DNA of 64,000 nucleotides. Origin: a candidate division LCP-89 bacterium B3_LCP (lineage in GTDB: Bacteria; Electryoneota; B3-LCP). Location: assembly GCA_005223185.1 (NCBI GenBank), contig NJBN01000006.1:1-64000 (forward strand), read 5' to 3'. Below the pieces are notes generated by a model, which searched no databases, was not told where the DNA came from, and worked only from the letters and a program-made list of their open reading frames with translations. Shown here piece by piece: positions 14,870 through 40,758 of the stretch. The first letter of the stretch is position 1. Each line of letters begins with the position of its first letter. A program made the position numbers and the translations under genes.

Positions 14870-14899
14870 TAAGCCCAAAGAAACATTTTGGAGGATATC

Positions 14900-17029
14900 A
14901 TGAAACGTTCACATGTAATTCTCATATTGATAATTCTACTTTGGAGCAGCAACACCTTTGCCGAAACCATAACCGTCTCAGGGAACGTATCCGGCACCTG
15001 GTCAGCGGATACGGTGCTGGTAGTGGGGGAAGTGCGCGTGCCGCAAGAGCAGACGCTTGTGATTGAACCGGGTGTGAAGGTGTTGTTTCAGGTTTACTGT
15101 TCAATAATTGTCGAGAGTAATGCAACTTTGCAAGCAATAGGAACGGTAGTAGATTCCATCTCATTTGATGAACTCACTTCGGGCAACAGTTGGAGTGGTA
15201 TCAGGTTCATGAGTGCTTCTGATTCATGTATGTTGATGTATTGTTATATAGCAAATGCTACTAATGGTGCAAATGGTGGGGGAGTTTACTTCGGGCATAC
15301 GAATGCTTATATTGAAAACTGTTTAATAGAACACTGTACGGCAGAGGGACAAGGTGGGGGCATATGTGGCTATTATTCAACTCTTATAGTGCGATCTAAC
15401 ACGATAAAAGAATGTTGTGCAGGCGGTAGTGGCGCGATAGATTTAGATTTTTGTCGATACTCAAAAATATTAGATAATATCTTGTCTCAAAATGCAGCAT
15501 ATTACTCTGACGGTGGTTTGAATTTATATGATTCTGATAATGTGCTGGTAAGGAACAATGTTATAATGGGGAATTCCACAGTACGTTATGGTAACGGTGC
15601 TTTTAGCTGTGTCTATTGCAATGATCTAATCTTAGAAAGAAATATAATCTTAGCAAACACTACAAATACTGGACCAGGGGCGTTCGAGATTTTCGATCAT
15701 AATGCTGTGATAAGAAATAATTTGATAATAGGGAATACTTCAGAGATTGGATTCGGAAGCATACTGTTATATTCATTAAATTCCTGCTTATTCACTCATA
15801 ATATCGTTAGCGGTAACTATGGACGAGGATTACATGTCTCTGGATGCACCTACAATTTTTCAATTTCTTACAATATTATCAGTAATAATGCGGGAGGCAT
15901 ATATAGTAACGATAACCTAGATTCAATTGTAGGAAATACAATTTACCGTAATTCGCCTGGCAGCGGAATCTACTGCACCGATTATGCAAATCCACTAATC
16001 AAGGACAATACTCTTTTCCAGAATACTTCCGAAATAGGTGGAGCGATATACTGTTTCAATTCTTCCCCCACATTAACACAGGACATTTTTTGGGAGAATA
16101 ACCCACAGTCTTTTCAATTTGAGGTTAATCCACTCCCACTTATTGAATATTGCGACATTGGAGACACCCTCTGGCCCGGCATAGGCAACATCAACGAAGA
16201 TCCTCTGTTCGTCAATCCCGATCTTAATGATTACCGTTTGCAATGGGGTTCACCATGTATTGACTCAGGCGATCCTAATCCGCAGTACAACGATCCTGAC
16301 AGCACCCGCGCTGACATGGGCGCTTTCTACTTCGATCAGAGTGTACCAGTGCGCATCTTACTTTCCCCCCACGAAATCCCCTACCTGATCGAGCCCGAAG
16401 GTGGAACCATGGATTACACCATCCAGGGCACTAATATCTACCAGAATCCTCATGATGTCACTATATGGTGCGATGTGGAACTGCCGGATAGTACCATATA
16501 CGGGCCGGTTCTTGGTCCGGTTACCATCACCATCGAACCCGGGCAGACTGTCGAACGCATCCGCACGCAAACTGTCCCTGCCGTAGCTCCGATGGGCGTG
16601 TATCATTACAACGCTTACGCAGTCGTGGATCAGGATACCTCTAAAGACAGCTTCATGTTCGGTAAGTTGGGAACGGTAGTTGGCGGATCGGATGGCTGGG
16701 GAAATGCAGGGGAAATGTTCCCGTATAGTGGTGAATTCGAGCCAGCTCAGATTCATAATTCATCATTCATAATTCATAATTTATTCCCCAACCCCTTCAA
16801 TCCGACCACCACCATCACCTTCACCCTGCCGGTTGCGAGTATGGTGAAGTTGGAGGTGTTCGACATCTCCGGCTCGCGCGTAGGGGGCGACCTTGCGTCG
16901 ACCCGCCAATATCACCCCGGCACCCACCAGATCACCTTCGATGGATCCGGTTTGTCTTCCGGTATCTACATCTACCGCTTGACTGCGGGAGAATTTACAG
17001 CAAACGGAAAAATGATCCTGATGAAATAA
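14900..17029 (+). CDS. Secreted right-handed beta-helix protein with sorting domain
   Basis: 709 residues from ATG 14900, which has GGAGG six bases upstream; a TTG start four codons earlier falls on the ribosome site itself. Signal peptide (ending NTFAE), an opening shared with the 53471 protein (TITVSGNVSGTWSADTVLVV), a right-handed parallel beta-helix of short repeats (about 60-430; many N-x-I, GG and Cys turns), a conserved PIDSGDP-type closing block, a domain of about 90 residues shared with three other exported proteins, and a C-terminal sorting domain ending KMILMK. Such proteins are surface polysaccharide-binding or lyase-like folds. No catalytic site is evident, so I call it a surface protein only. 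Confidence 0.87.
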   Translation: MKRSHVILILIILLWSSNTFAETITVSGNVSGTWSADTVLVVGEVRVPQEQTLVIEPGVKVLFQVYCSIIVESNATLQAIGTVVDSISFDELTSGNSWSGIRFMSASDSCMLMYCYIANATNGANGGGVYFGHTNAYIENCLIEHCTAEGQGGGICGYYSTLIVRSNTIKECCAGGSGAIDLDFCRYSKILDNILSQNAAYYSDGGLNLYDSDNVLVRNNVIMGNSTVRYGNGAFSCVYCNDLILERNIILANTTNTGPGAFEIFDHNAVIRNNLIIGNTSEIGFGSILLYSLNSCLFTHNIVSGNYGRGLHVSGCTYNFSISYNIISNNAGGIYSNDNLDSIVGNTIYRNSPGSGIYCTDYANPLIKDNTLFQNTSEIGGAIYCFNSSPTLTQDIFWENNPQSFQFEVNPLPLIEYCDIGDTLWPGIGNINEDPLFVNPDLNDYRLQWGSPCIDSGDPNPQYNDPDSTRADMGAFYFDQSVPVRILLSPHEIPYLIEPEGGTMDYTIQGTNIYQNPHDVTIWCDVELPDSTIYGPVLGPVTITIEPGQTVERIRTQTVPAVAPMGVYHYNAYAVVDQDTSKDSFMFGKLGTVVGGSDGWGNAGEMFPYSGEFEPAQIHNSSFIIHNLFPNPFNPTTTITFTLPVASMVKLEVFDISGSRVGGDLASTRQYHPGTHQITFDGSGLSSGIYIYRLTAGEFTANGKMILMK

Positions 17030-17987: not shown

Positions 17988-18022
17988 AAATTTTCTTTTA
18001 AAACCATCTTAAATACGAAGAG

Positions 18023-18048
18023 ACCCGCCCCATCAAGCGGGTTTTGTA
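18023..18048 (+). terminator. Intrinsic terminator after the PAS gene
   Basis: Stem ACCCGC (18023-18028) / GCGGGT (18037-18042) followed by TTTTGTATTG. It separates the PAS gene from the following operon. Confidence 0.75.
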
Positions 18049-18165: not shown

Positions 18166-19503
18166 ATGCGAATTCTTTTCATTCAATCTTACCTGGGACG
18201 CAGGGAGCCGCCGGTTGCTCCCTTAGGGTTGGCTTCTTTAGCGGCTAATCTTCCGAATCACGATTGCAGGATTTTTGATCCCAATGTCGCCACAGATCCT
18301 CATGAAGAGACAAGAGCCATAATAAAAGCTTACACACCGGATATAGTGGCGCTATCTCTTCGCAACATAGATACTACCAAGTACAGCGATCAATTCCTCT
18401 ATTTTGAGTATTTCCGGCGGTATGTCGAATTCGTGAAGGAAGTCGATAAGAACCCCTTGATAGTTGTGGGTGGCAGCGGTTTTTCCCTGTTTCCCCGCCG
18501 TATCATGGAAATGGTAACTGAGATCGACGTCGGATTTACGCTGGAAGCCGAGGTATCCTTTCAAAACTTTTTAGATAACAACGGGCGACCGGATAATATC
18601 AAGGGCGTAGTTTACAGAAATGAGGGATCAGTCGTTTCTACAGGTTTCCCGGACCTCGTTGACGTTAAGGAAATAGCGCCTCCCGCCTGGGATATGGTAG
18701 ATCTTACTGCATATCTTCCATATACAACCAGAGCATCGATCGGTCTGGAGACCAAGCGGGGATGTGCGCTGGCTTGTTCGTACTGTACCTATCCGGTAAT
18801 AAGCGGATCAGAGGTCAAGCAAAAGAGACCTGCCGCAGTTGTCGATGAGCTGGTCAAGTTGAAGGAAAAGCATGGCGTTGACCGGATTTTCTTCTGCGAT
18901 CCGGTTTTTAATTACCCCTTAGACCATTCAAAGAGTATCTGTCGGGAGATACTGGACAGAGGCTTACAAATCAAGTGGGGTGCTTACCATCAGGACCGGT
19001 TTATCGATGAAGAATACATCGATTTAGCCTTAGCTGCTGGTTGTGATGATTTCTACTTTTCTCCCGATGCAGCTTCCTCGGAAGGCCTGCAGGTGCTGAA
19101 CAAAGCATCAAGCGTGGATTCGCTGAAGCGGTCGGTTGAGATAATAAAATCGCGCGGACAAGCTAAGGCGTCTTACAACTTCTTCGCAGCAGTACCGGGT
19201 ATCGGATGGAAGAATTTCGGAGCTGCATTACAATTTCTTATCAGTACACGTTGGAAGTTGGGTTCACGATTGGTTAGATGGAAGTTAAGTTACATAAGGA
19301 TAGAACCAGAGACTGAGATCACTAAGTTAGTGTTGGGCGCTGATCACATACGTAACGAGGAACTACTGCTTCCTGTAAGTAAAAAACAACTACGCCAGCT
19401 TTTTGTCAGAAAGACCTCTTCTAAATTGTTAAATATATTACTCTTCTTCCATTTTTACACAGGTGCGTTATTCGGCAGGAAAAATGTCATCAGACAGGAT
19501 TGA
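18166..19503 (+). CDS. B12-binding-type radical SAM protein
   Basis: About 445 residues. The N-terminal cobalamin-binding Rossmann-like domain (about 1-150) contains PPVAPLGLASLAA and ends in VVGGSGFSLFP; it lacks DxHxxG, as is normal for this class. The radical SAM barrel follows with the Fe-S motif C-A-L-A-C-S-Y-C (C200, C204, C207). Class B members methylate unactivated carbons or carry out ring and C-C bond chemistry; this one is not assignable to a known family. Start: an ATG at 18139 lies only about 12 bases from the predicted RNA start and has no ribosome site, so I prefer 18166, where MRILFIQSYLG begins the domain. The end overlaps the next gene by 20 bases. Confidence 0.85.
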   Translation: MRILFIQSYLGRREPPVAPLGLASLAANLPNHDCRIFDPNVATDPHEETRAIIKAYTPDIVALSLRNIDTTKYSDQFLYFEYFRRYVEFVKEVDKNPLIVVGGSGFSLFPRRIMEMVTEIDVGFTLEAEVSFQNFLDNNGRPDNIKGVVYRNEGSVVSTGFPDLVDVKEIAPPAWDMVDLTAYLPYTTRASIGLETKRGCALACSYCTYPVISGSEVKQKRPAAVVDELVKLKEKHGVDRIFFCDPVFNYPLDHSKSICREILDRGLQIKWGAYHQDRFIDEEYIDLALAAGCDDFYFSPDAASSEGLQVLNKASSVDSLKRSVEIIKSRGQAKASYNFFAAVPGIGWKNFGAALQFLISTRWKLGSRLVRWKLSYIRIEPETEITKLVLGADHIRNEELLLPVSKKQLRQLFVRKTSSKLLNILLFFHFYTGALFGRKNVIRQD

Positions 19504-21706
19504 AACGGTGAAGCGGGACGATTTTACATGGAAAGATGGGGACCTTCAGGTTACCAGGTCTATTTGCTGGTCACCACCGGGTTGTCACGGGGGCTGCGGT
19601 CTGCTGTTGTTTCACCGGGACGGGAAGCTGATACGCGTTGAAGGTGATATAAAGAACAGGTACAACGACGGCAGACTCTGTGTGCGCGGGTTATCTGTTG
19701 GTGAGATGATCGAGCATCCGCTGAGACTGAAAAAACCTCTATTGCGTACGGGTAATAGAGGTGAGGATAAATGGCAGGAGGTCACCTTTGATGAGGCAAT
19801 CAGCGTCATTTCTGAACGTTTGACGGCTATTCGGAATGAGCATGGATCTGAATCGGTGATATTCTGCAAGGGTACAGCCAGAGACATTGGAGCGTGGCTG
19901 CCGCGTTTATGTTACGGTTTCGGAAGTCCCAATTATTTCGGTTTCGGTCCCGGCAGCGGTAATGCCTGTTTCAGACCCCGAGTAACTGGCGCCACGGCAA
20001 TGATGGGTGGAATGCCAGTGCCGGATTTAGGACAGTTCGATTATTCCGGAAGCGGCGGCAATTTTCAGCAGCCGCGCTGCATCCTGATATGGGGGGCAAA
20101 TCCCATAATTTCCAATCCGGACGGGCTCTTCGGAGGATGGGTGATTGACGCTCTAAAAAATGGCAGTGAACTGATTGTTGTCGATCCCCAAAAAACCTGG
20201 CTGGCGTCAAAAGCTAAGCACTGGCTAAAGCTGAAACCCGGCACCGATGGCGCATTGGCGATGGGGATGATCAGGCAGATATTTGCAGATAACCTGATTG
20301 ATGCAGATTTCTGTGATGAATGGGTGTCGGGCATTACTGGTGTACAAAAAGTTTGTGATCCTTATACGCTTGATAGAACCAGCCGAATAACCGGAATTCC
20401 CCATGATGAGATAAAGCAAGCAGCACAGTTTTTCGCCCGGAGCAAACCAGCCAACCTGATCTGGGGCGTTTCGGTTGACATGAATCCGGGATGTTTGGGT
20501 ACCATTTCCGGTTTGGTCAGCTTGATTACACTGACCGGAAACATCGAAATACCGGGCGGTATGATTTTACAGCCTGATCCTTTCGGAGTCCAGCGGCGCG
20601 GGGATGATATAGCTGAGTTTCCCGGTGTAAAAGTTCGGCGTATCGGCGCTGAAGAGTATCCGATTATTGAAATAGGGAACCCTTACGGTCAACCGGACGT
20701 ACTGTTGGACCAGATGGAATCCGGGAAACCGTATCCTATTAAAGCTGCCTGGCTTCAGGGAACCAGCGTCATACCTTCTTCTTTCGCTGATCCGAAAAGA
20801 GTGATGAAACTGTTCGGATCGTTGGATTTCTGCGTGGTGGTGGATGTTTTTAAAACACCTGCTGGTGTCGCCTTCGCTGACGTAATACTCCCTGCCGCAC
20901 TATATCCTGAAAAGGATAGTATCTTCGTTCAATATTCTCAGGTAGGTACTATAAATAAAGTGGTTGAACCTCCACCGGAATGCCGCAGCGATGCTGAGAT
21001 CATTTTGGAAGTCGGCAGAAAAGTCGCACCAGAATATTTCCAGTGGGATTCGGTAGAGGAATGGATCGATCATCGTCTGCAACCGATGGGAATGGATTTC
21101 GAAGAGCTGCGTGATGTAGGATCGGTTTTCCCCACAGTAGAATACAACAAACAGACTAAAGGGAAGCTGCGTGCAGATGGACACCAGGGATTTGATACCC
21201 CTTCCGGTAAGATCGAATTGGATTGTTCGGTTTTTAGGAAGTTTGGACTCAACGGATTACCTCATTTTGAAGATTGTACGGCTGAATATTGGCAACGTTT
21301 TGGTAAAGAAGACTATCCCTTCATCTTAACCACAGGATCACGGCGATCCTATTACTTTGGTTCAGAACAACGCCAGGTGGAATCATTACGCAAACTGCAG
21401 ACCGATCCTCAAGTTCAGATTCATCCTGAAGTGGCATACCAAAAAGGGATTTCACAGGGTGATGAAGTGCGGATCTTCAGTCCGTTCGGAAGCTGCACCA
21501 TGAAAGCCGACATAAGCGACCTGTTCGATCCAGAAGTGATTCACTGCGATTATGGATGGTGGTATCCGGAAAGGAAGGGGCGGCTGCCAGAGCTATTCGG
21601 CGTTGGCGAATGCAACGTAAACGAGCTGCTTCCGTCCGGACTGCAGGGTCCGGGTGGGTTAGGTTATCCTTTCAGGTGTTTCATTTGCAGTATTGAAAAG
21701 GTATGA
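19484..21706 (+). CDS. Molybdopterin-dependent (Mo/W-bisPGD) oxidoreductase
   Basis: About 740 residues of the DMSO-reductase/acetylene-hydratase superfamily. The N-terminal Fe4S4 motif reads C-x5-C-x3-C...C (C28, C34, C38, C66), with a wider first gap than the usual C-x2-C. GPGSGNACFRPR offers a candidate Mo/W-ligating Cys (about C162). IWGANPIISNPDG, VVDPQKTWLASKA and LKPGTDGALAMGMI are cofactor-binding motifs. The C-terminal MoCo-binding domain starts near FILTTGSRRSYYFGSE. No Tat signal is seen, so it is probably cytoplasmic. It could be an oxidoreductase, a transhydroxylase or a hydratase. I start at ATG 19484 (GGCAGG upstream), not the GTG at 19463. A methyl-, aldehyde- or alcohol-level change on a biosynthetic intermediate is inference from context. 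Confidence 0.88.
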   Translation: MSSDRIETVKRDDFTWKDGDLQVTRSICWSPPGCHGGCGLLLFHRDGKLIRVEGDIKNRYNDGRLCVRGLSVGEMIEHPLRLKKPLLRTGNRGEDKWQEVTFDEAISVISERLTAIRNEHGSESVIFCKGTARDIGAWLPRLCYGFGSPNYFGFGPGSGNACFRPRVTGATAMMGGMPVPDLGQFDYSGSGGNFQQPRCILIWGANPIISNPDGLFGGWVIDALKNGSELIVVDPQKTWLASKAKHWLKLKPGTDGALAMGMIRQIFADNLIDADFCDEWVSGITGVQKVCDPYTLDRTSRITGIPHDEIKQAAQFFARSKPANLIWGVSVDMNPGCLGTISGLVSLITLTGNIEIPGGMILQPDPFGVQRRGDDIAEFPGVKVRRIGAEEYPIIEIGNPYGQPDVLLDQMESGKPYPIKAAWLQGTSVIPSSFADPKRVMKLFGSLDFCVVVDVFKTPAGVAFADVILPAALYPEKDSIFVQYSQVGTINKVVEPPPECRSDAEIILEVGRKVAPEYFQWDSVEEWIDHRLQPMGMDFEELRDVGSVFPTVEYNKQTKGKLRADGHQGFDTPSGKIELDCSVFRKFGLNGLPHFEDCTAEYWQRFGKEDYPFILTTGSRRSYYFGSEQRQVESLRKLQTDPQVQIHPEVAYQKGISQGDEVRIFSPFGSCTMKADISDLFDPEVIHCDYGWWYPERKGRLPELFGVGECNVNELLPSGLQGPGGLGYPFRCFICSIEKV

Positions 21707-22494
21707 GTATTTTGAATAAGATCGGTTTCAGACTTTCCGGGTTCAGGCAGGTACCGCTTGCTGATGCTTTATTTTCACTGCCGGAAATCGGCTACGATGC
21801 GGTGGAAATATGCCTCGAACACCCGGATTTAAATCCCGATAACCCTTCAAGTGTGAAAACGGATGAATTAAAATCACTGCTGGAAGAGGCAAACCTGGAC
21901 GTTTCGGCAGTCAGTTTTCACGGGAAGAAGGCTGATTGGGAAGAGAAGGTAAGAAAGTGCCGCATAGGCATAAAAATGGCTTCGGATTTGGGCACTGACT
22001 GCTTCATATCAGGGTCGAGAATTGAGGTTGACGATGACGAGTTCGACGGGATGTGCGCTTTCACCATTCAGATGTGCAAACAGACTTCAGATCACGGGAT
22101 CTATTTTGCCGTAGAACCGGAACCGGGCACTCTGATAGATGGAACTGAGGAAATGGAAGCGTTGATCTCTAAAGTAGGATCAGAATATTTGAAGGTCAAT
22201 TTAGACATCGGTCATTCGTTCTTGACGGAAGATGACGTTTGCGCGGATATCCAGCATTGGGGTGAAAGAATAGCGCACATTCATATAGAGGACATGAAAA
22301 GCGGTTTACACCGCCATCTAATCCCCGGAGAGGGCGATTTGGAATTCGGGGGAATATTTTCGGCTTTGGAAAGAATAGAATATAACGGTTATCTGACGAT
22401 AGATCTCTTCGACATTATCGATCAACCTGCCAAACATGCGCGCAGTGCATTGACGGCTTTAAGGCGGTATATTGATGAATACAATGAAAAATAG
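21703..22494 (+). CDS. Sugar phosphate isomerase/epimerase (TIM-barrel, xylose-isomerase-like)
   Basis: 263 residues. AP-endonuclease-2/xylose-isomerase-like TIM barrel: GYDAVEICLEHPDLN, FAVEPEPGT (metal Glu), KVNLDIGHSFL (Asp and His), HIHIEDM and HLIPGEGDLEFG, which supply the usual divalent-metal site. Members isomerise or epimerise sugars, inosose or hydroxypyruvate. ATG overlaps the previous stop (ATGA at 21703), so translation is coupled. It could make or rearrange the polyol or sugar moiety handled by the later nucleotidyltransferase; that is inference. Confidence 0.85.
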   Translation: MSILNKIGFRLSGFRQVPLADALFSLPEIGYDAVEICLEHPDLNPDNPSSVKTDELKSLLEEANLDVSAVSFHGKKADWEEKVRKCRIGIKMASDLGTDCFISGSRIEVDDDEFDGMCAFTIQMCKQTSDHGIYFAVEPEPGTLIDGTEEMEALISKVGSEYLKVNLDIGHSFLTEDDVCADIQHWGERIAHIHIEDMKSGLHRHLIPGEGDLEFGGIFSALERIEYNGYLTIDLFDIIDQPAKHARSALTALRRYIDEYNEK

Positions 22495-23503
22495 CGAGAA
22501 AAGGTTCACAGTAGGAATAGGTCTGACCGACCGCTGCAACGTCAACTGTTCTCACTGCTATTCGAGACCGGAGAGCGGTTCCAGTGATCTGGATTTAGAC
22601 CAGTTATACAAACTGTTGGACAGTGTCCCTATCAAGAGTGTCAATTTCGGAACGGGGGAGAGTATTCTGTATCCTTATTTCAGAAAGGTTATACGGGAAT
22701 TGGCTGCACGAGATGTTGAAATGGCGGTTACCACCAATGGTACTACAGTCTTGGAGTTATCCGATGATGAACTGCGGTTATTCCACGATATTGATTTCTC
22801 GCTGGATTACCCCGATCCCGTTCAGAATGACCGCTGGCGTGGATCAGGATCGCACGATAATATCATGAGGGGCTTGGAACGCTGCCGCGATTTAGGTGTG
22901 GAAGCCAGCTTAGTGGCTTGCCTTATGAAGGGAAATTCGGGACAAATGGGTAAGTTGGCCCAACTGGCAGTCAAACTGGGGGTGAGTCTGCGCATCAATG
23001 TGTATAAATCAGTATTTACCAGAGAGTATCAGCCTGATTATAACGAATTCTGGGGGGCGATTAAGGATATGGCACAAGCTGCCTACTTTTGCGCCTGCAG
23101 TGAGCCTGTGGTCAGCGCCGCTGTAAATAACCGCAAGCAGAAGAGCGGCAATCCCTGTGGACAAATGAGTTTTAGAGTACATCCAGATGGCAATATTGTC
23201 CCCTGTGTGTACCTGCGAGACAGCGATATAAATATAGATGATACTGTAGATGATTTCAGCAAGCAGAAGCGTATGCTCACGGAAAGAGTTAATCTGCCTC
23301 TACCAGAGGTATGCGGGGAATGCTCTCAGGTGGATATCTGCAATGGAGGGTGTGCTGCACGGCGGCTATTAGGTGACCCCAACGACCCCGATGAATATTG
23401 CTATTTTATACGCGGCGATAATCCGGACATTCCAGTACGCTGGAAGGAAAGTAAAGGCTTGGTACATGAGGACTATTTATGCACGATGATTTTATCAGGA
23501 TAG
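22475..23503 (+). CDS. Radical SAM/SPASM protein (first of three)
   Basis: About 342 residues. The Fe-S motif C-N-V-N-C-S-H-C lies near the start (about C21, C25, C28), followed by SVNFGTGESILYPYF, the GGE-like motif in variant form (GTGES). A SPASM domain closes the protein: C in NPCGQMSF, CVYL, then VCGECSQVDICNGGC and a terminal C. SPASM enzymes mostly modify peptides, but some act on small molecules or sugars (for example BtrN). No precursor peptide is encoded nearby. Overlaps both neighbours. An ATG at 22484 is an alternative start. Confidence 0.86.
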   Translation: MNTMKNSEKRFTVGIGLTDRCNVNCSHCYSRPESGSSDLDLDQLYKLLDSVPIKSVNFGTGESILYPYFRKVIRELAARDVEMAVTTNGTTVLELSDDELRLFHDIDFSLDYPDPVQNDRWRGSGSHDNIMRGLERCRDLGVEASLVACLMKGNSGQMGKLAQLAVKLGVSLRINVYKSVFTREYQPDYNEFWGAIKDMAQAAYFCACSEPVVSAAVNNRKQKSGNPCGQMSFRVHPDGNIVPCVYLRDSDINIDDTVDDFSKQKRMLTERVNLPLPEVCGECSQVDICNGGCAARRLLGDPNDPDEYCYFIRGDNPDIPVRWKESKGLVHEDYLCTMILSG

Positions 23504-24969
23504 AGAACTTATTTCCCCATGTAACCGATTGGGCGGATTCATCTGACAAAGGTTACAAATGGTCTGAAAACCTGTGGGTATCCCAGAAGGACGGCTGGAT
23601 AGCTCTTTATCGCCCGTTGAACTTAGGGTTAGTCTATTTCAAACAGGATTTCTTCGAAGAACTAATCAACGGAGTTCATACTATTACCAAAGATCGATTG
23701 ACAAAGCTTATCGATGAGGGTATTTTAATTCCTGCAAATGATGATAGAGATAGAAGGGAGCACGAAAACCTGATATCGAAGGCGCGTTCGGGCGTATTTC
23801 GTTTCATCTGTATTTTACCCACAACTTCATGTGATCTGAACTGCCTCTATTGCCACCAGCGTCCCGATGCAGGGCAGGAACGATATATGACAACCGAAGA
23901 AGCGGATGCAGGGTTGGACAAATGTGCTGAAGTTTGTTCAGATAAAAGCAAGCCTGTGGACATTCTGATTTATGGTGGCGAACCATTGCAGGCTTTTCCG
24001 GTCTGTCAGCGGATTTTCGCAAGAGCTTGTGGCGATAAACCAATCTTTTCGCAGCCGGTGCGCTTATCCTTCACCACGTCGGGAATCGGTTTAACTGAGG
24101 AGCAAGTCGCTGTACTGGTGCGATATGACGTCTTCGTCATTATATCCATTGACGGTATGCCGGAAGTAAACGACAGGGTGCGCCGGTCTGGGGATGGAAG
24201 AAGTTCGTTTAGACATGCTTCGGAAGCATATAATCTGCTGAAGAAAGAGGGCGTTCGCGTCGGCTTGTCCGTCACTATAGGTAAGCACAATATCGATACC
24301 CTTTCAGAACAGGTAGAATTTCTACTAAACAATTTCGAACCGAACGACATAGGGTTGAACGCTTTTCTACACAGACGCGGCGAAGGAATTAATCCATTCC
24401 AGGTAAACAGCCGCAGCGCTTTCGATCAATTTATCGATGCTTTCGAGATAACGCGCGAACGGGGCGTGTATGCCGAACAGCCTTTCAGGCGGTTGAAGCC
24501 GTTTGTATTTCGTCAACCTCTGCTGAAAGATTGTTCCTCGCCGGGTGAACGTTTAGTGCTGGCGCCCGGTGGATTGATGGGATTTTGCGATTCCTGCTAT
24601 CCTGATGGAGTTGATTTTTACACAGTAGAGGAATTCCCCGGACGGGACCAAGAGGAGTATCTTAAATGGGCATCTCTTTCATCGGTAGAAATGCCTCAAT
24701 GTCGATCTTGTCCGGCGATGAGCGTTTGCGGCGGCGCCTGTCGTTATGATGCGCTTAAAGCTTCAGGACGGTACGATGGCGTTGAACCGGAACGCTGCTC
24801 ATTTGAAAAAACCTTCCTGAACTGGACTATATGGGAACTTTTTGCTTTAAGAAAATCACGACTTTCTGACCCCTACTTTCCCCAGGATGAGGAGCGCAGG
24901 GCACTCTTTGGAAATGTCATGATGCACGAACAGAACCAGCCGTTCACTGCAGGCAGTTATTCAGAATGA
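23479..24969 (+). CDS. Radical SAM/SPASM protein (second; tandem paralogue)
   Basis: 496 residues. An N-terminal region of about 110 residues (ENLWVSQKDGWIALYRPLN) resembles the small substrate-handling domains that precede peptide-modifying radical SAM enzymes. Fe-S motif C-D-L-N-C-L-Y-C (C118, C122, C125), IYGGEPL, SIDGMPEVNDRVR, and a SPASM region with CRSCPAMSVCGGACRYDA. Blocks such as GLNAFLHRRGEG, LKDCSSPGERLVLAPGG and an ...IWELF tail match the next protein, so the two are duplicates. Start codon ATG 23479 has GAGGA upstream and overlaps the previous gene by 25 bases. Confidence 0.86.
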   Translation: MHDDFIRIENLFPHVTDWADSSDKGYKWSENLWVSQKDGWIALYRPLNLGLVYFKQDFFEELINGVHTITKDRLTKLIDEGILIPANDDRDRREHENLISKARSGVFRFICILPTTSCDLNCLYCHQRPDAGQERYMTTEEADAGLDKCAEVCSDKSKPVDILIYGGEPLQAFPVCQRIFARACGDKPIFSQPVRLSFTTSGIGLTEEQVAVLVRYDVFVIISIDGMPEVNDRVRRSGDGRSSFRHASEAYNLLKKEGVRVGLSVTIGKHNIDTLSEQVEFLLNNFEPNDIGLNAFLHRRGEGINPFQVNSRSAFDQFIDAFEITRERGVYAEQPFRRLKPFVFRQPLLKDCSSPGERLVLAPGGLMGFCDSCYPDGVDFYTVEEFPGRDQEEYLKWASLSSVEMPQCRSCPAMSVCGGACRYDALKASGRYDGVEPERCSFEKTFLNWTIWELFALRKSRLSDPYFPQDEERRALFGNVMMHEQNQPFTAGSYSE

Positions 24970-26207
24970 ATCAGGGCGAACAAAAAGTTCTAAACCTTCA
25001 GGAGAGGTATCATACCTTTCGCAGGAACGATGAAATCTGCCGCTATGGCATCTTTGGCATGAACCGGGAATATTTTGAGGTCGCGCATCCTCTGGACGAA
25101 CCGGCGAAAAGGACTGTTACCCTTAGCATACCTGCACCTAAATTGCGGGTCATGCAGGCTGTGATTACCTCAAAGTGCAATCTGAAGTGTGCTTACTGTT
25201 CGTTCATGGCGAACGCACCGGTATCGTCAGCTCCCGAAATGAGCAGAGCTGAAATCGAAGATCTGTGCCGGAAGTTCAACCGGGAGATCGGATCTGATGG
25301 GCTGCTGTTGATCACCGGCGGGGAACCTGAACTGTATCCCGATGCGGTTGACTATTTTTTGGACAATATCGATGGAAAGGTCATCATCTTCACGAATGGG
25401 ACGCTGAGTGATAGGGACAGGTTGTTATCCTACCAAAAACGCCGTGCAGGAGTACTGTTCTCTTTGGATGGGGATCTGTTTGCCCAGGATTCGGTGCGCA
25501 AGGGAAAACATGGATCGTACAATCGCGTAGCAGCAGCCTTGAAGACAGCACAGACAATCGGATTGGATTACGGCATATCGGCTGTTGTGGGTGATCATAA
25601 TATTGAAAAACTGCCAGAGTTGATCGCCTATATTCACCAGGAATTCAAACCAGCCAGCCTGGGACTCAACCTGCCCCACCGTTTCGGTGATGGAGTTTGG
25701 ACGCGGATCGAAGAGTACACCCAAGCCTTAAAGCAGGTCTTCAGGTACGCCAGGAGAAGGGATTTATTTATAGATCAACTAAACAGGAGGTTATCGCCTC
25801 TGGTTACAGGTCAGTTCCGTTTTCGGGATTGCGCTGCTCAGGGCGAAAAAATTGTGGCGTTTCCCGGAGGAGTTGCCCTATCCTGCGTAAACGAGGCGGC
25901 TTTAGAGGAACCAACATTTGATTGGGGTTACCGCATTCCGCTGCTGAATGAGCAGTGCAGTGATTGCTTTGCCATAGCTATCTGCGGCGGTGGGTGCATC
26001 TTTGACGGTGAGGCTATTTACGGCAGCAGAAAGTTCGATGAACGTAACTGCTATTTCACCAGAGAGATGTTGGAATATTTCATCTGGGATTTCAGGGATG
26101 AACTTGGGGAAAGCGCCAGCGATCCCGCTGCTTTGGCGAAAAAATACGGCGCGTTGATAAAACGTGCAAAAGGGACTAATTTTTCGGTGGGACATGAAGC
26201 TGTCTGA
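24966..26207 (+). CDS. Radical SAM/SPASM protein (third; tandem paralogue)
   Basis: 413 residues. Fe-S motif C-N-L-K-C-A-Y-C (C71, C75, C78), ITGGEPELYPDA, FSLDGDLFAQDSVR, then GLNLPHRFGDG, FRDCAAQGEKIVAFPGG and a SPASM region CSDCFAIAICGGGCIFDG with a final ERNCYF. The C-terminal EYFIWDFRDEL parallels the tail of the previous protein. The N-terminal domain is shorter (about 60 residues). ATGA overlap with the upstream gene. Confidence 0.86.
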   Translation: MNQGEQKVLNLQERYHTFRRNDEICRYGIFGMNREYFEVAHPLDEPAKRTVTLSIPAPKLRVMQAVITSKCNLKCAYCSFMANAPVSSAPEMSRAEIEDLCRKFNREIGSDGLLLITGGEPELYPDAVDYFLDNIDGKVIIFTNGTLSDRDRLLSYQKRRAGVLFSLDGDLFAQDSVRKGKHGSYNRVAAALKTAQTIGLDYGISAVVGDHNIEKLPELIAYIHQEFKPASLGLNLPHRFGDGVWTRIEEYTQALKQVFRYARRRDLFIDQLNRRLSPLVTGQFRFRDCAAQGEKIVAFPGGVALSCVNEAALEEPTFDWGYRIPLLNEQCSDCFAIAICGGGCIFDGEAIYGSRKFDERNCYFTREMLEYFIWDFRDELGESASDPAALAKKYGALIKRAKGTNFSVGHEAV

Positions 26208-26925
26208 AGAAAGAGCGATGCGTTCTCATTGGGAAGATCAAGCGGATCAGTATAGCACAAGGAGAACACTCAGCGAAGTTGATAAACGGGTTGTCGCACT
26301 TTTAAAACCTGCAGGCAAGCAGAAGATTTTAGAAGTTGGATTTGGACCGGGTATAGTAGCGCGAGAAATCGGGCGAAGTTATCCTTCTTGTCAATATGTC
26401 GGTCTGGATGCCGCACCGGGTTTCTTCAAACATGCGCGGGAACGAATAGGGGATACAGCAAGGCTGGTTTTAGGCAGCGCTGCAGCTTTGCCATACAAGC
26501 AAGCGAGTTTTGACGTTATCTTTGAGATGGTCACTATTCATCATTTTCCTCGTGATGTGATACCATCAGTTGTGCAGCAGATATCAGATGTACTAAAAGA
26601 TGGCGGCAGATTTATTTTAGCGGAGGATTGGAGTGTAGAGCCGAAGGGTGAAAAGGCTGTACAGGCGTGGAAACTGCAAAGTAAGCGGTTGACTGTGCAA
26701 TCGGGGTTGGAGTATCATCCTTCGGAAGATGAGTGGGGGGAAATGATACACAAGGCCGGCTTGGAAACCGAATCGGTCGAACGCGTGCGCCGTCCGTTGA
26801 ACTTTTCCCAATTCGACAGTTTACAAGGTTCGGAATATGAGGCAGAGATTGACCATTTACACAAACTCTGGGGTGAAGAACAACCTACTACAGAAATGTC
26901 CCTTTTTCAATGCAGGAAGAGGTAA
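26194..26925 (+). CDS. Class I SAM-dependent methyltransferase
   Basis: About 243 residues, Rossmann-fold methyltransferase. Motif I is KILEVGFGPGIVAREIG, motif II YVGLDAAPGFF, then FDVIFEMVTIHHFP and LKDGGRFILAEDW. Substrate not predictable; the family includes UbiE/COQ5-like and natural-product methyltransferases. The ATG at 26194 follows GGTGGG and overlaps the previous gene by 14 bases; a GTG at 26164 is less likely. Confidence 0.87.
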   Translation: MKLSEERAMRSHWEDQADQYSTRRTLSEVDKRVVALLKPAGKQKILEVGFGPGIVAREIGRSYPSCQYVGLDAAPGFFKHARERIGDTARLVLGSAAALPYKQASFDVIFEMVTIHHFPRDVIPSVVQQISDVLKDGGRFILAEDWSVEPKGEKAVQAWKLQSKRLTVQSGLEYHPSEDEWGEMIHKAGLETESVERVRRPLNFSQFDSLQGSEYEAEIDHLHKLWGEEQPTTEMSLFQCRKR

Positions 26926-27627
26926 ATGCAGGCTATAATTTTAGCTGCTGGTGCAGGGAGGCGTTTAGGGGGTAGGGTCCCTAAACCGCTGATAGAAATA
27001 AACGGCGAACAACTCTTGATCAGGTCAATCAACCAGCTTAATGACCATAATGTGGTTGACATTATCGTGGTTACAGGGTACCAGAAGCATTTGGTAGAAG
27101 GTGCAGTCACCAGTTTAAATGTAAGGACTGTGTTCAACCCCTTCTATCCCATGTCAGATAATCTGGCTTCTTTCTGGGCGGGGAGGATGTATCTTGATGA
27201 TACCTGCATTATGGCGCACGGAGACCTGATCCTCGAGGACGAACTGCTGGAACGATTGATACATGCAGAAGGCGATATAGTCTTACCCATGGATAGATCA
27301 AGTGTCGATGAAGAAGCCATGAAGATGAAGGTGGATGATGGAATGCTGATGGGTTTGAGTAAGTCCATTCCCGTTCACCAGGCAACCGGCGAGTCAATAC
27401 CACTGATGAAGTTTTCGGCTGGCGTGCTTGAAGATCTGAAGATAGTTATCGAAGAAGCTCTAAATAAGGGAAATTTCAAGCAGTTGCTAGATGAGGCCGT
27501 CTTTAAGGTCGTGCAGAGAGCCAAATTCGTCACTACTATTTTGGATGTAACCGGATTGAAGTGGATCGAAATAGATACGAAAGATGATTTGAAAAGGGCT
27601 GTGGACATCTTTGGCGAAAACGCATGA
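26926..27627 (+). CDS. Nucleotidyltransferase (phosphocholine/inositol-phosphate cytidylyltransferase-like)
   Basis: 233 residues. The NTP-transferase fold is clear: AIILAAGAGRRLGGRVPKP (P-loop-like nucleotide motif), VTGYQKH, NPFYPMSDNLASFWAGR and HGDLILE (metal Asp). The MSDNLASFW block is typical of the phosphocholine- and inositol-phosphate-type cytidylyltransferases. It would activate a phosphorylated alcohol as a CDP (or other NDP) derivative. The ATG directly follows the previous stop with GAAGAGG as ribosome site. Pairing with a CDP-alcohol phosphatidyltransferase two genes on suggests they act in sequence. Confidence 0.86.
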   Translation: MQAIILAAGAGRRLGGRVPKPLIEINGEQLLIRSINQLNDHNVVDIIVVTGYQKHLVEGAVTSLNVRTVFNPFYPMSDNLASFWAGRMYLDDTCIMAHGDLILEDELLERLIHAEGDIVLPMDRSSVDEEAMKMKVDDGMLMGLSKSIPVHQATGESIPLMKFSAGVLEDLKIVIEEALNKGNFKQLLDEAVFKVVQRAKFVTTILDVTGLKWIEIDTKDDLKRAVDIFGENA

Positions 27628-28478
27628 ATGCTTCAGACCCCCAAAATGCCCAAGAACAGAAGCTGATAACCGAGGCACAACTTAATTGGAATCAGCACTG
27701 GAAGAAGATAACACAATTGCCAGCGTCGCCTGCTACCACAGGATTTTCAGGAGCGGTGAAGAGAACCTTACGGCGGTCTGGCGGTCTGGAATTAGGTTAC
27801 CGTATTGTCAAAAAGGAGATCCGGCGAAATAACGGGCAGGTTATAATGGAAGCTGGTTGCGGAACGGGTGAAATGTCTCTACGGATGGCATTAGAGGGTA
27901 AGAGCCTGTTCACGCTGGATACCTCCCGTTCTGCCTTGGATTACGTTAAAAGATGTGCTAAAAGGTCGGGTATTAAGGTAAATATCATCCAGGGTTCGGT
28001 TCTGCACCTGCCTTTCAGGGAAGCTGTCTTCGATGCAACTTTTAACGTTGGCGTTCTGGATCATTTAGGCCCGCAAAACCGCATTGAAGCTGCCCGAGAA
28101 ATGGTTCGGACATTGAAGCCATTGGGTAGGACAGTGATACTGATCAATAGCTCACGAGCGTTTGTCCACCGGTTAGCTGTCAGGTGTGCTGAGAAGAAGG
28201 GATTATGGAAGTTCGGATTCAAGGATGCTGTGCATTCGTTGGCGAAGGAGGTTGCGGAGCGCTTACGAGGATGCAGAATCAGGGAATATGAAAGAGGTTT
28301 CTTAAGTCAGTTTGAATTTCTGCATTATTGTATTCCTCAAGCTGCTGTAATAAAACGGTTATTCTTCAGAACTTTCTACCTTCTCACTTTCCCGTTTGGC
28401 TTTTTGAATCGTTTTGCCGGTCAGTACCTGATAACAGTAATAGAAAAAAGTGAGGTTAAAGATCGCAGACACAGATGA
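27624..28478 (+). CDS. Class I SAM-dependent methyltransferase (second of the operon)
   Basis: 284 residues. VIMEAGCGTGEMSLRMALEG is motif I, FTLDTSRSALDYVKR motif II, then FDATFNVGVLDHLGP and LKPLGRTVILINSSRAF. The C-terminal 90 residues add a basic, hydrophobic tail (FKDAVHSLAKEVAERL ... FLNRFAGQYLITVIEK), which may bind a lipid or membrane substrate. ATGA overlap with the cytidylyltransferase gene. Confidence 0.85.
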   Translation: MNASDPQNAQEQKLITEAQLNWNQHWKKITQLPASPATTGFSGAVKRTLRRSGGLELGYRIVKKEIRRNNGQVIMEAGCGTGEMSLRMALEGKSLFTLDTSRSALDYVKRCAKRSGIKVNIIQGSVLHLPFREAVFDATFNVGVLDHLGPQNRIEAAREMVRTLKPLGRTVILINSSRAFVHRLAVRCAEKKGLWKFGFKDAVHSLAKEVAERLRGCRIREYERGFLSQFEFLHYCIPQAAVIKRLFFRTFYLLTFPFGFLNRFAGQYLITVIEKSEVKDRRHR

Positions 28479-29235
28479 GAACAAATCAGGAAATGAAGCG
28501 CCGCCGATATATGATAATTCCCTCTATCGCCGCTGGATCATAAGACCAATAGCTAAACGTATAGCACCCGGGCTGGTTTCGGCTGGTTTGACCGGTAACG
28601 GAGTCTGCTGGGTTAAACTGTGGTTCGGATTAGCGGGAGCTGTTTTATTAGCATCAAAGTCGGCGGAGGTCTGTTTCTTGGGGATGCTGCTGCTTCAGGC
28701 AAATTTCTTACTGGATGCCGCCGACGGAGAAGTGGCGCGTTTGCGCGGGGAAGCGGCTAAACTTTCCGGGGAATTCTTAGATAAGCTCTTCGATCATCTA
28801 CCCAAGACAGCCATGTACTTTTTCTGGGGTTACGGCACTTACAGGTTAACTGGTATGCAGTTGCCCATATTCTGCGGAGTATTTTTAGCGGCATGGAATA
28901 TATTCCCTCGCTTCTGCTGTGTGGAAACGCTCCTGGAAAGATTGGACAAAGCGCCGCATGTCGCCGAAAAACCGGATTTCCACAAGGCGGTTGGAGAGTC
29001 CTTCGTGGTAAAAAAGGAACGTGGTGGGACCGACTTTGTATTGACGCTGTTAGTGCACCCTGCCATGAACCTGCTTACCATCTTTTTTGTAATCGAGATT
29101 TTTTATTCTCGTATGACATGGGGTAATTTCGGTATAGAGACACGTTACGCGTTGTTAATAGTATATACAATCGTTGGCGCGTCAAATTTCATACGAAAGA
29201 GCGTAAAATTTTACCGGGTGCTGGATTTTTCATAA
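28450..29235 (+). CDS. CDP-alcohol phosphatidyltransferase family membrane enzyme
   Basis: 261 residues. The diagnostic motif is present (D-A-A-D-G-E-V-A-R ... G-E-F-L-D-K-L-F-D). By my count the gap between AR and G is nine residues, one more than the usual eight. About six hydrophobic segments surround it. Enzymes of this family join a CDP-activated alcohol and a second alcohol into a phosphodiester, usually a phospholipid head group. The frame starts at GTG 28450, which overlaps the previous gene by 29 bases; no better start is visible before the conserved core. It is the last gene of the operon. The converging DUF4097-like gene ends 22 bases away. Confidence 0.88.
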   Translation: MRLKIADTDENKSGNEAPPIYDNSLYRRWIIRPIAKRIAPGLVSAGLTGNGVCWVKLWFGLAGAVLLASKSAEVCFLGMLLLQANFLLDAADGEVARLRGEAAKLSGEFLDKLFDHLPKTAMYFFWGYGTYRLTGMQLPIFCGVFLAAWNIFPRFCCVETLLERLDKAPHVAEKPDFHKAVGESFVVKKERGGTDFVLTLLVHPAMNLLTIFFVIEIFYSRMTWGNFGIETRYALLIVYTIVGASNFIRKSVKFYRVLDFS

Positions 29236-30383: not shown

Positions 30384-32981
30384 ATGATAAAAAACACAGG
30401 GATATTGGTGATAACGCCATCTGCTAAACGGGCGAATGCGGTATTTGCCGCCATATTGATCCTCCTGGTGAGCGCATACTCCGCTTTTTCGGTTGAAGAA
30501 GTGAGTAATCTCTCAGTTGAACAACTCGTTGCGCGCGGGGATTCTCTTTATGACGAATTTCTGTTGGAAGAGGCATTCCTAACGTGGACAAAGGCAGTTG
30601 AATTGTACAGAACGCTGGGTAAACAGGCTTCAGAAGCGGAGATTCTCAAGAAAATCGGCTGGATATTCGATGACATAGCCGATTATCACAAGGCGATCGA
30701 ATACTATCAACACAGCTTGCAGATCGCCAAAGACATATCTGATCATAAACTGCAGGGGCAGGTACTAAACAACTTAGGTATAGTGTACATGAATCTGTCT
30801 GAATATGATTCCGCCCTTGATTATCTTCAGCAGAGCCTGCAGGTCCGCCGAAACTTGGGTGATAAAAGAGGGGAAGGCAGAGTCTTAAACAATATGGGTA
30901 TGGTTTATGACATACTTTCAGATCGGCGAGAAGCGCTGAAGTTATATAGTCAAAGTCTGGATATAAGCAGGGAGATTGATGACAGGCGTATGGAAGCACG
31001 AGTCTTGGGCAATATGGGGGTTATATATAAGAATATATCTGATTTTCCCCGGGCACTTGATTACTATGATAAAAGCTTAATGATGAAGAGAGAATTAGGT
31101 GATCGTTACGGGGAAAGCTCAACACTGACCAATATAGGTGTCGTTTACGACCTGCTGGGTGACCACAACCGGGCGCTGGAATATTACTTCAATAGCCTCA
31201 ACATGTGCGAAGAATTAGGAGATAAATCCGGCGAATCTGAGAACATTGATAATATCGGAGCTGCTTATGAAGCTTCTGAGCGAAACGGGGAAGCCCTGGA
31301 ATGGTACAGTAAGAGCCTCGTACTAAAAGAGGAACTGGGAGATCGCCGGGGCGCAGGTCAGGTGCATAATAATATTGGAATTATCTACTATCATCAGGGA
31401 TTGTATAAAGAAGCATTGAATCATTGCCGCATTGATTTGGAAATCTGTAGAGAGATAGGTGACAGAAATGGCGAATGCGTGACTTTATCCAATATCGGCA
31501 TGATCTACGTTAAGCTGGATAGGATTGAAGAAGCCGGGAAAGCTGTAGAAAATGCAATTGAAATGGCTGAAGAAAGTGATTTGGCAGTGAACATTCAGTT
31601 AGCCTGGCTGGCGCAGGGGAGAATTTACGCACACCGGAGATTGGATCTGCAGGCAGTAAAATGTTTTGAAAAGGTGATAAGTAGTATTGAATCAGTTCGC
31701 GGTGATCTGGAGATATTCGCTCAGAAGAGCAGCTATGCTTCTCGCATGCATAAGGCTTACAACGAGATAATTTCCGCCTTGATCCGCCTGGATAGAGACG
31801 ATGATGCTTTTGAATACGTTGAACGCAGCCGGAGTCGAGCTTTTCTGGACATTTTGGAAGAGGGCGACGTTCAGGTTGTTGAGAGCCAACATGAAGATTT
31901 CCTGAAGAGGAACAGCAGAACGCCAGATGACAGGTCGTACGAGCCCGACCTTGCTTCCCTTTCTACTGCTGCGCCCCTGAAACTGATCGAAGTGCAAAGA
32001 ATGTTACGGCCTCAAAGCGCACTTCTGGAATATTTTTTAACTGATACTACGGTGTACGTCTGGCGCATTACGCGGGAAGAAGCAGAGTTAAGTTCAATTA
32101 ATATCGCCATCGATGACGTCATCGAGCAGGTAGAAGGCTTCAGAGATGCCATTACGGTCGGGGGAGCAGTTAGAAAGAGGTCTGATAATCTGTATAAAGC
32201 ACTGCTTGAGCCTGTTATTGCTGCTGTCAAAGATGGTTCTTTAGTGATAGTTCCCCACGGAATCCTGCACTATCTGCCCTTTCATGCCTTGCTTGACAAC
32301 GAAGGTAGATATTTAATTGAACGTTTCCCATTGACTTACCTGCCATCAGCATCGGTATTGAAGTATATAGATGAGAAGGAAAATGCCGAAACCAACAGGT
32401 TGTTAGCCTTTGGCAATCCTGAAGCTGCAGGACCGGATAAAGCAAAGCTCCCCCAGACAGAGGTCGAGGTGGAGAAAATTGGCAAGTTGTTCAGTATAAA
32501 GGACATATTTGTGGGAATGCAGGCGACTGAGGCGAAGTTTCATGAAATAGCATCGCAATACGATATCATACATTTAGCCTGCCATGGAGAACTCAATGCT
32601 GCGCATCCGTTGTTCTCTGGGCTTTATTTCACATCCGGAGGAGATTTCGATGGGAAGCTGGAGGTACATGAGATCTTTTCCCTTAAACTTGACGCGCAAT
32701 TAGTTACGCTCTCAGCCTGTCAGACTGGTATGGGGAAATTGACCAATGGTGATGACCTGGTGGGACTTTCAAGAGCGTTTATCTTCGCCGGGACGACTTC
32801 AGTATTGGCGTCTATATGGATGGTAGCGGACGAATCCACAGCCTTTCTGATGGAAAAATTCTACCAATACCTGCGTCAAAATAGCAAGGAAAGGGCTTTA
32901 CAGAAAGCCCAGTTGGATACGATGAAAGAATATCCAGAAGTGTACGCCTGGGCTCCTTTTATTCTGATTGGCAGTCCTTAA
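30384..32981 (+). CDS. Exported TPR-CHAT protease-like protein
   Basis: 865 residues. A hydrophobic export signal (about 18-36, VFAAILILLVSAYSAFS) precedes nine or more tetratricopeptide repeats with the NNIG signature (about 45-430). The C-terminal CHAT domain (about 560-865) retains the caspase-like dyad: His in HLACHGELN (H734) and Cys in LSACQTGMG (C779). It is therefore probably an active cysteine protease in the periplasm or on the outer surface. The ATG at 30384 lies only about 14 bases from the predicted RNA start; an in-frame GTG at 30408 with AGGG upstream is a plausible alternative. It is followed by sigma and anti-sigma genes, which suggests regulated proteolysis. Confidence 0.9.
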   Translation: MIKNTGILVITPSAKRANAVFAAILILLVSAYSAFSVEEVSNLSVEQLVARGDSLYDEFLLEEAFLTWTKAVELYRTLGKQASEAEILKKIGWIFDDIADYHKAIEYYQHSLQIAKDISDHKLQGQVLNNLGIVYMNLSEYDSALDYLQQSLQVRRNLGDKRGEGRVLNNMGMVYDILSDRREALKLYSQSLDISREIDDRRMEARVLGNMGVIYKNISDFPRALDYYDKSLMMKRELGDRYGESSTLTNIGVVYDLLGDHNRALEYYFNSLNMCEELGDKSGESENIDNIGAAYEASERNGEALEWYSKSLVLKEELGDRRGAGQVHNNIGIIYYHQGLYKEALNHCRIDLEICREIGDRNGECVTLSNIGMIYVKLDRIEEAGKAVENAIEMAEESDLAVNIQLAWLAQGRIYAHRRLDLQAVKCFEKVISSIESVRGDLEIFAQKSSYASRMHKAYNEIISALIRLDRDDDAFEYVERSRSRAFLDILEEGDVQVVESQHEDFLKRNSRTPDDRSYEPDLASLSTAAPLKLIEVQRMLRPQSALLEYFLTDTTVYVWRITREEAELSSINIAIDDVIEQVEGFRDAITVGGAVRKRSDNLYKALLEPVIAAVKDGSLVIVPHGILHYLPFHALLDNEGRYLIERFPLTYLPSASVLKYIDEKENAETNRLLAFGNPEAAGPDKAKLPQTEVEVEKIGKLFSIKDIFVGMQATEAKFHEIASQYDIIHLACHGELNAAHPLFSGLYFTSGGDFDGKLEVHEIFSLKLDAQLVTLSACQTGMGKLTNGDDLVGLSRAFIFAGTTSVLASIWMVADESTAFLMEKFYQYLRQNSKERALQKAQLDTMKEYPEVYAWAPFILIGSP

Positions 32982-33077
32982 TTTTGAGACTATTGAATAA
33001 GTATTTTTACGGTCATGGCTTCGCTTTCGGCTCAAAATGATTTTTGAGGGGTTTTACATTAGAAATAGGGTGAGAAT

Positions 33078-33695
33078 TTGTCTAACGACAATCATAACAG
33101 TTGGAACGACCTGCTGGAACTGTCGAAAATTGGGGATGGTGAGGGACAGCGGCAACTTTTCGAAAAGTTAGCGGTAACGCTCCGCCCCATCCTTCAATGT
33201 AGATTAAGAGGATGGGCTCATGAAGATCAAGATGACATTCTTCAGGAAACACTCATAACGGTTGGTCAAAAGTTGCCCCAAATTGAATCAAATCCCCATA
33301 AGTACAGCATGATAATTCTGCGAAATAAGATCGGTGATGCGTTGCGGGCGCGTAAGCGTCGCATCCAGGTTTCCATAGATTCGCTGACAGATCCAGACTC
33401 AACTTCCCTGAAGAGTGCTATTGAGCAGGCTCTAAGCCAGAGCAGCCACGAAGAGGAAGTGTTGTCCGGGCTCGACAACCGCCGCCAGATTGACAGCATT
33501 AAAGAGGGGATTAAGAGACTCTCATCGTTCTGTCAGACCTTCTTCTTAGGGATATTAGAGGATCTGGATCCGCAGGAATTATGGGAGCTTTTCAAATCAT
33601 CCGAACCAGGGTTGCAAAGAAATACATATAGAAAGCGGATATTTGACTGCCGCAGAAAACTGAAAGAGACTCTACTGGAATGTGAAGGACAATAG
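33078..33695 (+). CDS. ECF-type RNA polymerase sigma factor
   Basis: 205 residues. Region 2 is recognisable (QDDILQETLITVGQKLPQI and YSMIILRNKIGDALRARKRR), and a C-terminal helical region 4 (LSSFCQTFFLGILEDLDPQELWELF ... NTYRKRIFDCRRKL) is more divergent than usual. It would direct RNA polymerase to a dedicated regulon. The start is TTG with GGGTGAG five bases upstream; no ATG is available before the conserved part. It overlaps the following anti-sigma gene by 14 bases. Confidence 0.82.
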   Translation: MSNDNHNSWNDLLELSKIGDGEGQRQLFEKLAVTLRPILQCRLRGWAHEDQDDILQETLITVGQKLPQIESNPHKYSMIILRNKIGDALRARKRRIQVSIDSLTDPDSTSLKSAIEQALSQSSHEEEVLSGLDNRRQIDSIKEGIKRLSSFCQTFFLGILEDLDPQELWELFKSSEPGLQRNTYRKRIFDCRRKLKETLLECEGQ

Positions 33696-38433: not shown

Positions 38434-38477
38434 GATTATTCTTTGGTTTTCACTATACTATACTTGCAGAAAACTCG

Positions 38478-40586: not shown

Positions 40587-40731
40587 TCCTACCTCCAAAT
40601 AATCTGAATCACAGATTCACGCTGATTATTAGATTTCACAGATAAAGTCAAACTGTTATCATTCTGCACGAAAATTCTCCATTCTGCATTCAAATTTAAA
40701 TTTTGCAATTTCCATTTTGCAATCTGCAATG

Positions 40732-40752
40732 AGAAAAGGCGCTCACGCGCCC
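40732..40752 (-). terminator. Intrinsic terminator after nuoN
   Basis: Minus strand stem GGCGC-GTGA-GCGCC (40751-40738) followed by TTTTCT, seven bases past the nuoN stop. Confidence 0.75.
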
Positions 40753-40758
40753 TTTCGA

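Follow-up and report, generated by a model that had tools for sequence, protein, structure and literature searches.

Ten co-directional genes at positions 18166-29235 (forward strand) of the window, the whole 64,000-nucleotide stretch of DNA analyzed here, constitute a real and old pathway, conserved in order in seven genomes. In our judgment there is about an even chance that this is a dedicated anaerobic pathway ending in the CDP activation of a tailored phospho-alcohol (here called X) and phosphodiester transfer. The core of this model, which we hold with moderate confidence from sequence comparison, is that gene 8 would generate CDP-X and gene 10 would convert it to a phosphodiester, as in the Lic/Pnt, DIP and AF2299 systems. 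Protein families, catalytic motifs and the constant composition and order of the ten genes are observed directly, whereas we infer the CDP-X logic, the order of steps and the destination of the product.

Organization and distribution of the operon

The first-pass annotation had described ten co-directional, overlapping or abutting genes of named families, and this description is accurate: all ten ORFs are present on the same strand at the coordinates given below, each shares 4-44 nt with the next or, at 26925/26926, directly adjoins it, leaving no intergenic gap inside the operon, and Pfam and NCBIfam agree on the family assignment of every gene. The start of gene 1 at 18166 is supported, since homologues align from residue 1 of that start. 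The overlaps suggest that the operon is co-transcribed as one transcript. The same annotation had placed the genes behind one promoter, and this was not confirmed: no sigma-70-like site was found in the gap upstream of the operon, and promoter-like counts there equal those in shuffled sequence (21 versus 18.5). A terminator-like hairpin (18020-18045) closes the gene upstream, a convergent gene lies 22 nt downstream of the operon end, and no riboswitch or structured RNA was matched in Rfam. Further upstream, 14888-17029 encodes a parallel beta-helix protein whose C-terminal sorting domain is of the Por secretion type.

A search with gene 5 recovered strong orthologues in six relatives, four from the same family as the window's genome and two from other families. 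The full ten-gene set occurs with identical order and strand in these six and the window's own genome, as the co-occurrence check suggested in the first-pass annotation called for; these seven carriers belong to three families within a single phylum of the FCB group, Ca. Electryoneota to judge by named relatives. Named carriers include Ca. Tariuqbacter arcticus, placed by taxonomy in Ca. Electryoneota (FCB group), the MAG BS750m-G18, presumably from the Black Sea to judge by its name, a Lac Pavin MAG, and a SURF MAG labelled Zixiibacteriota. In one carrier (G010) the operon is divided between two contigs with the order kept in each half, and in another (G003) a contig end cuts the locus inside gene 1, leaving only the end of that gene. 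Gene 3 is in place in six of the seven; it is missing from the operon of G005, where a 40% homologue lies elsewhere in the genome and the TIM-barrel gene has moved or been replaced. One genome of the window's own family (G001) is without the operon.

Profile searches of 386 genomes spread over the domain, the seven carriers included, separated the carriers clearly from all others. Full-scoring orthologues of gene 5 were confined to the carriers; gene 10 scored 447-481 bits in carriers and at most 85 bits in the other genomes searched, and gene 2 about 1280-1450 bits versus at most 499 bits. Close orthologues of genes 2, 5 and 10 were therefore absent from the other ~379 genomes searched. Pairwise identities of the operon proteins across carriers range from 33 to 71% with the catalytic motifs retained, and the mean per gene runs from 42% (gene 7) to 62% (gene 2), low enough for motif conservation to be informative. 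In a concatenated tree the split between the five genomes of the window's family and the other two is fully supported, which is compatible with vertical descent of the operon. The claim that this is a coherent but unrecognized system withstands the refuting conditions named in the first-pass annotation: homologous loci keep the whole set, no split version with scattered gene subsets was found among them, and neither Pfam, NCBIfam nor literature searches for the gene combination matched the set to a characterized pathway. A paper on Electryoneota/Tariuqbacteria mentions neither radical SAM enzymes nor lipids.

Proposed CDP activation and transfer

Gene 8 (26926-27627, +; 233 aa) encodes a CTP:phospho-alcohol cytidylyltransferase of the LicC/PntC/IPCT class by Pfam and NCBIfam. 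We assigned this class by full-length similarity together with the loop LAAGxGxR..PK and a C-terminal (E/D)(I/V)D metal motif. Gene 8 aligns over its full length to LicC (1jyk), then to IPCT and PntC, and carries an invariant L6-A-A-G9-x-G11-x-R13 loop, P19 and K20, and E215-I216-D217, which lines up with the EID of LicC. At the two amine-contact positions of PntC, gene 8 has an invariant histidine (His98) and a residue that remains acidic, so that its specificity is not readable from sequence.

Gene 10 (28450-29235, +; 261 aa) encodes a six-helix CDP-alcohol phosphotransferase by Pfam, PDB and fold matches. This family is defined by the motif DxxDGxxAR-x8-GxxxDxxxD and about six transmembrane helices. 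Gene 10 displays D89xxD92G93xxA96R97-x9-G107xxxD111xxxD115, with all eight motif residues invariant in seven sequences and a spacing between R97 and G107 (x9) one residue longer than that of the family (x8); its model shows six long helices and an N-terminal one (mean pLDDT 71.5). AF2299 and PIPS head both the PDB and the fold comparisons, with AF2299 best in sequence and in fold, although the fold match is weak (E about 1e-3). AF2299 and DIPP synthase join a CDP-alcohol phosphotransferase domain to an N-terminal cytidylyltransferase-like domain (PMC4634129), and genes 8 and 10 thus look like a split form of the same arrangement. More distant relatives of gene 10 (G364, G174, G023) are without radical SAM partners; one lies among glycosyltransferase-like genes and the others beside a methyltransferase or in unrelated settings.

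The first-pass annotation had proposed that an activated alcohol is made and attached, perhaps as a lipid head group. The CDP-alcohol step of that proposal is supported by the likeness of gene 8 to LicC and of gene 10 to AF2299 and PIPS; the lipid head group is only a possibility, because six-helix enzymes include both lipid and non-lipid processors. AF2299 and DIPP synthase, each with six helices, are not lipid-processing enzymes, while additional helices are found in those with lipid acceptors, for example the choline phosphotransferases (PMC4634129). PIP synthase, also similar to gene 10, has six helices and does process lipids, using CDP-DAG. The window's genome contains separate PgsA and PssA+Psd, identified from their sequences and setting, which means that the operon comes on top of the standard lipid pathways.

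In the pathway we propose, gene 8 would join CTP and a tailored small phospho-alcohol X to give CDP-X, and gene 10 would transfer phospho-X onto a hydroxyl acceptor at the membrane, forming a phosphodiester; the product would most likely be either a lipid or a glycan decoration of the cell envelope, or else a soluble phosphodiester. The fixed order in seven genomes argues for this model, as does the similarity of gene 3 to sugar and polyol epimerases. Against it stand the absence of a kinase gene among the ten operon genes and the presence of three SPASM enzymes, which would be unusual for a small phospho-alcohol. If the model is right, an order-fixed anaerobic pathway present in three families would unite CDP-alcohol transfer with radical chemistry of the B12, Mo/W and SPASM kinds, for which the sources searched offered no precedent. 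The named members of this uncultured phylum come from anoxic waters and sediments, and the pathway would point to a polar lipid, a glycan decoration or a phosphodiester metabolite that is new. Genes 8 and 10 would then provide an assayable handle on the substrate.

It is instructive to compare the operon with the closest known systems. AF2299 and AfDIPP synthase / IPCT-DIPPS of Archaeoglobus likewise combine a cytidylyltransferase-like unit with a six-helix CDP-alcohol phosphotransferase to make a phosphodiester, but in the operon these units are two separate genes, eight radical SAM, Mo, TIM and methyltransferase genes are added, and most carriers are without inositol-phosphate synthase. The Lic (LicC) and Pnt (PntC) surface-tailoring systems and Kennedy-type pathways share a LicC-class cytidylyltransferase and the CTP activation of a small phospho-compound. 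In contrast to Lic and Pnt, the operon is without a LicA-type kinase or LicD, its carriers are without PEP mutase, and transfer would be carried out by a CDP-alcohol phosphotransferase. An analogous enzyme pair occurs in FCB bacteria in the alternate inositol-lipid cluster of Bacteroides/Prevotella (NTP transferase, CDP-alcohol transferase, HAD, MIPS), where the NTP-transferase and CDP-alcohol transferase of Bacteroides have been proposed to make inositol lipids (PMC9246714). That cluster is itself unconfirmed, and the operon differs from it (PMC9246714) in having radical SAM, Mo/W and TIM-barrel genes in place of MIPS and HAD.

The putative tailoring enzymes

Gene 1 (18166-19503, +; 445 aa) encodes a B12-binding radical SAM protein (Pfam B12-binding and Radical_SAM) with a CX3CX2C motif at residue 200, conserved in the seven genomes; it may carry out a B12-dependent radical C-methylation or rearrangement of X or of the product. 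Its best NCBIfam matches are BzaD (TIGR04385; 257 bits, cut-off 450) and the ladderane-associated TIGR04072 (193 bits, cut-off 360), so that it falls short of both equivalog cut-offs. Gene 1 shares the architecture of these proteins, but no other gene of either pathway is present in the operon.

Gene 2 (19463-21706, +; 747 aa) is a Mo/W-bisPGD protein by Pfam, with a [4Fe-4S] motif (C35-x5-C41-x3-C45-x27-C73) and a candidate metal ligand, C169, surrounded by GNAC(F/Y)RPR; these motifs are common to all seven carriers. It shares a single-chain Mo/W-bisPGD fold and the [4Fe-4S] motif with acetylene hydratase (2e7z, the best PDB match) and MopB enzymes of the formate dehydrogenase type, the nearest solved structures. 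In contrast to its Cx5Cx3C spacing, homologues outside the operon (30-35% identity, unrelated neighbors) have mostly CX2CX3C. In acetylene hydratase the catalytic Asp adjoins the second Fe-S cysteine; in gene 2 and its homologues His42 follows C41, and the alignment to 2e7z does not reach the Fe-S region. Inspection by eye revealed no Tat-like N-terminus, and the operon encodes no partner or electron-transfer subunit. Gene 2 may be a non-respiratory cytoplasmic hydratase or dehydrogenase. Homologues of gene 2 in two distant genomes (loci L071 and L074) have in their vicinity a gene for a B12 radical SAM protein, one resembling glycosyltransferases and one for a protein beginning MFRFD; these neighbors look similar at both loci, possibly as a separate conserved cluster.

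Gene 3 (21703-22494, +; 263 aa) is an AP_endonuc_2 / xylose-isomerase-like TIM barrel (Pfam, 120 bits) whose nearest NCBIfam relatives are fructoselysine 3-epimerase, IolO and IolE at ~66 bits; an isomerase or epimerase step shaping X or the finished product is its putative role. Genes 7 (26164-26925, +) and 9 (27624-28478, +; 284 aa) are class I SAM methyltransferases by Pfam and would add two ordinary methylations. Gene 7 is 253 aa long when read from a GTG, and the ATG at 26194 is the likelier start.

Three genes encode radical SAM/SPASM proteins: gene 4 (22472-23503, +; 343 aa; Pfam, NCBIfam and motifs), gene 5 (23479-24969, +; 496 aa), with an RRE-like N-terminal domain at about residues 26-86, and gene 6 (24966-26207, +; 413 aa), a diverged paralogue of gene 5. 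Both CX3CX2C and CX2CX5CX3C are found in every carrier sequence of all three, which would contribute three SPASM radical SAM steps on X or the product. We observed that each also ends in a near-invariant C-terminal motif, which is new: LVHE[DN]YLCTMI(L/F)(S/T) in gene 4 (codons 23437-23503), NQPFTAGSY behind a variable linker in gene 5 (24937-24969), and SVGHE behind a moderately variable linker in gene 6 (26176-26207). Conservation of these blocks is 0.90, 0.86 and 0.81 for genes 4, 5 and 6, compared with whole-protein means of 0.72, 0.68 and 0.72. The DNA for the final eight residues of gene 4 also encodes the start of gene 5. This dual coding can account for some of the conservation of the gene 4 tail but not for that of the residues preceding these eight. 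The C-terminal tail is missing from the one outside homologue examined (G089). The ordinary reading of these motifs is active-site capping, or docking within a shared complex.

Competing readings and neighboring loci

The SPASM proteins raise a direct question: is the substrate a small molecule at all? The main rival to the CDP-X model is that the enzymes act on a peptide or protein, although we consider it rather unlikely. The targets of genes 4-6 would be a ribosomal peptide or some protein, for instance the product of gene 2, recognized through the RRE-like domain of gene 5, and the modified residue would then be trimmed or decorated, as in PQQ or mycofactocin. Gene 5 matches TigE and CteB, RRE-bearing SPASM maturases, by sequence and fold over most of its length (nearly full length for TigE); its N-terminal domain, modeled as strands followed by helices (pLDDT 63-84), has a predicted RRE-like secondary structure and may correspond to the N-terminal domain of TigE and CteB. 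The AlphaFold model of gene 5 has a mean pLDDT of 57.8 and is poor past residue 300, and the N-terminal domain and barrel were used alone. Genes 5 and 6, which share the radical SAM and SPASM architecture of TigE, CteB and FibroRumin TIGR04136, are closest to peptide- or protein-modifying SPASM enzymes, and no other observation weighs as heavily against a reading based on small molecules alone. Most of the families that genes 4-6 match in NCBIfam are peptide maturases, but all score far under the cut-offs, Pfam detects no PqqD in gene 5, and neither a peptidase nor a transporter was found with the operon. The operon also differs from the TigE, CteB and FibroRumin systems in its extra conserved C-terminal motifs and in having no precursor gene: when small ORFs inside the operon, in its gaps and in 3 kb on either side were compared between eight loci, none proved conserved, the matches being at chance level apart from an antisense pair that spans the junction of genes 2 and 3 in two loci, in agreement with the earlier remark that no precursor peptide is visible. 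A cytidylyltransferase together with a CDP-alcohol transferase is not known to act in peptide maturation systems. One way around the missing precursor, which we regard as a long shot, is that the tails themselves (gene 4 LVHENYLCTMIFSG, gene 5 NQPFTAGSY, gene 6 FSVGHET) are tethered substrate or docking peptides that replace it and lead to a peptide-derived, CDP-activated phosphodiester; if true, the product would be a wholly new class.

Other readings concern the identity of X or of the donor. In an improbable inositol route, a variant of phosphatidylinositol or di-inositol-phosphate synthesis, gene 8 would make CDP-inositol, gene 10 would transfer inositol phosphate, and the remaining enzymes would modify the ring. 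The best NCBIfam match of gene 8 is IPCT/DIPPS (91 bits), that of gene 10 is archaetidylinositol-P synthase (48 bits), and gene 3 matches IolE/IolO. However, Ino1 (searched with PF01658, as PF07994 gave no match in a Corynebacterium control) is present in only two carriers (G002, G010) and absent from five, the window's genome included, and G010 holds a separate fused IPCT-DIPPS-like gene beside Ino1; myo-inositol is thus unlikely as a common X, and we rejected this route. Phosphonate tailoring of the Pnt or fosfomycin type, through CMP-phosphonate intermediates and B12 radical SAM methylation, is highly improbable: gene 8 resembles PntC and gene 1 weakly matches the PhpK family (95 bits, cut-off 600), but PEP mutase (PF13714) occurs in none of the seven carriers, while the same search was positive in 11 of 14 controls and put two other phylum members over the cut-off. 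Phosphonates are therefore unlikely as X, and this route too was rejected. It is also doubtful, to much the same degree as the inositol route, that genes 8 and 10 use the standard chemistry of CDP-DAG to make a lipid and merely share the operon with a functionally separate radical-enzyme pathway of genes 1-7. Gene 10 also matches PIP synthases, users of CDP-DAG, and its low Pfam score (25 bits) and extra motif residue leave room for CDP-diacylglycerol, instead of CDP-X, as the donor; the ten genes nevertheless stay together in constant order in all seven genomes, except for gene 3 in G005.

Two database-derived assignments were also rejected. For an anti-phage defense island, PADLOC gave no match beyond superfamily level (models of viperin, mad2 and PDC-M51A, none above 56 bits). 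Genes 8 and 7 match the DVU_1551/1556 system weakly, but the DVU_1556 model is also the best match of two unrelated methyltransferases (37711-39119) and is thus uninformative. Those two small methyltransferases, with a pentapeptide-repeat protein, occupy 37711-42192, directly adjoining a NuoN gene. Elsewhere in the window, 30384-34542 encodes a TPR protein of 865 aa with a CHAT domain, then a protein of 205 aa that Pfam does not match and another TPR protein, perhaps a partner of the anti-sigma type, possibly forming a sigma-factor-linked CHAT/TPR module, and 46363-48120 encodes a 585 aa protein whose N-terminal domain resembles 5'-methylthioadenosine/SAH nucleosidase. In the Tariuqbacter genome G010, an inositol-1-phosphate synthase homologue (L077; contig 416, 13542-14762) contains one in-frame TGA, and a second, stop-free copy lies beside the fused IPCT-DIPPS-like gene (L044, 7201-9721).
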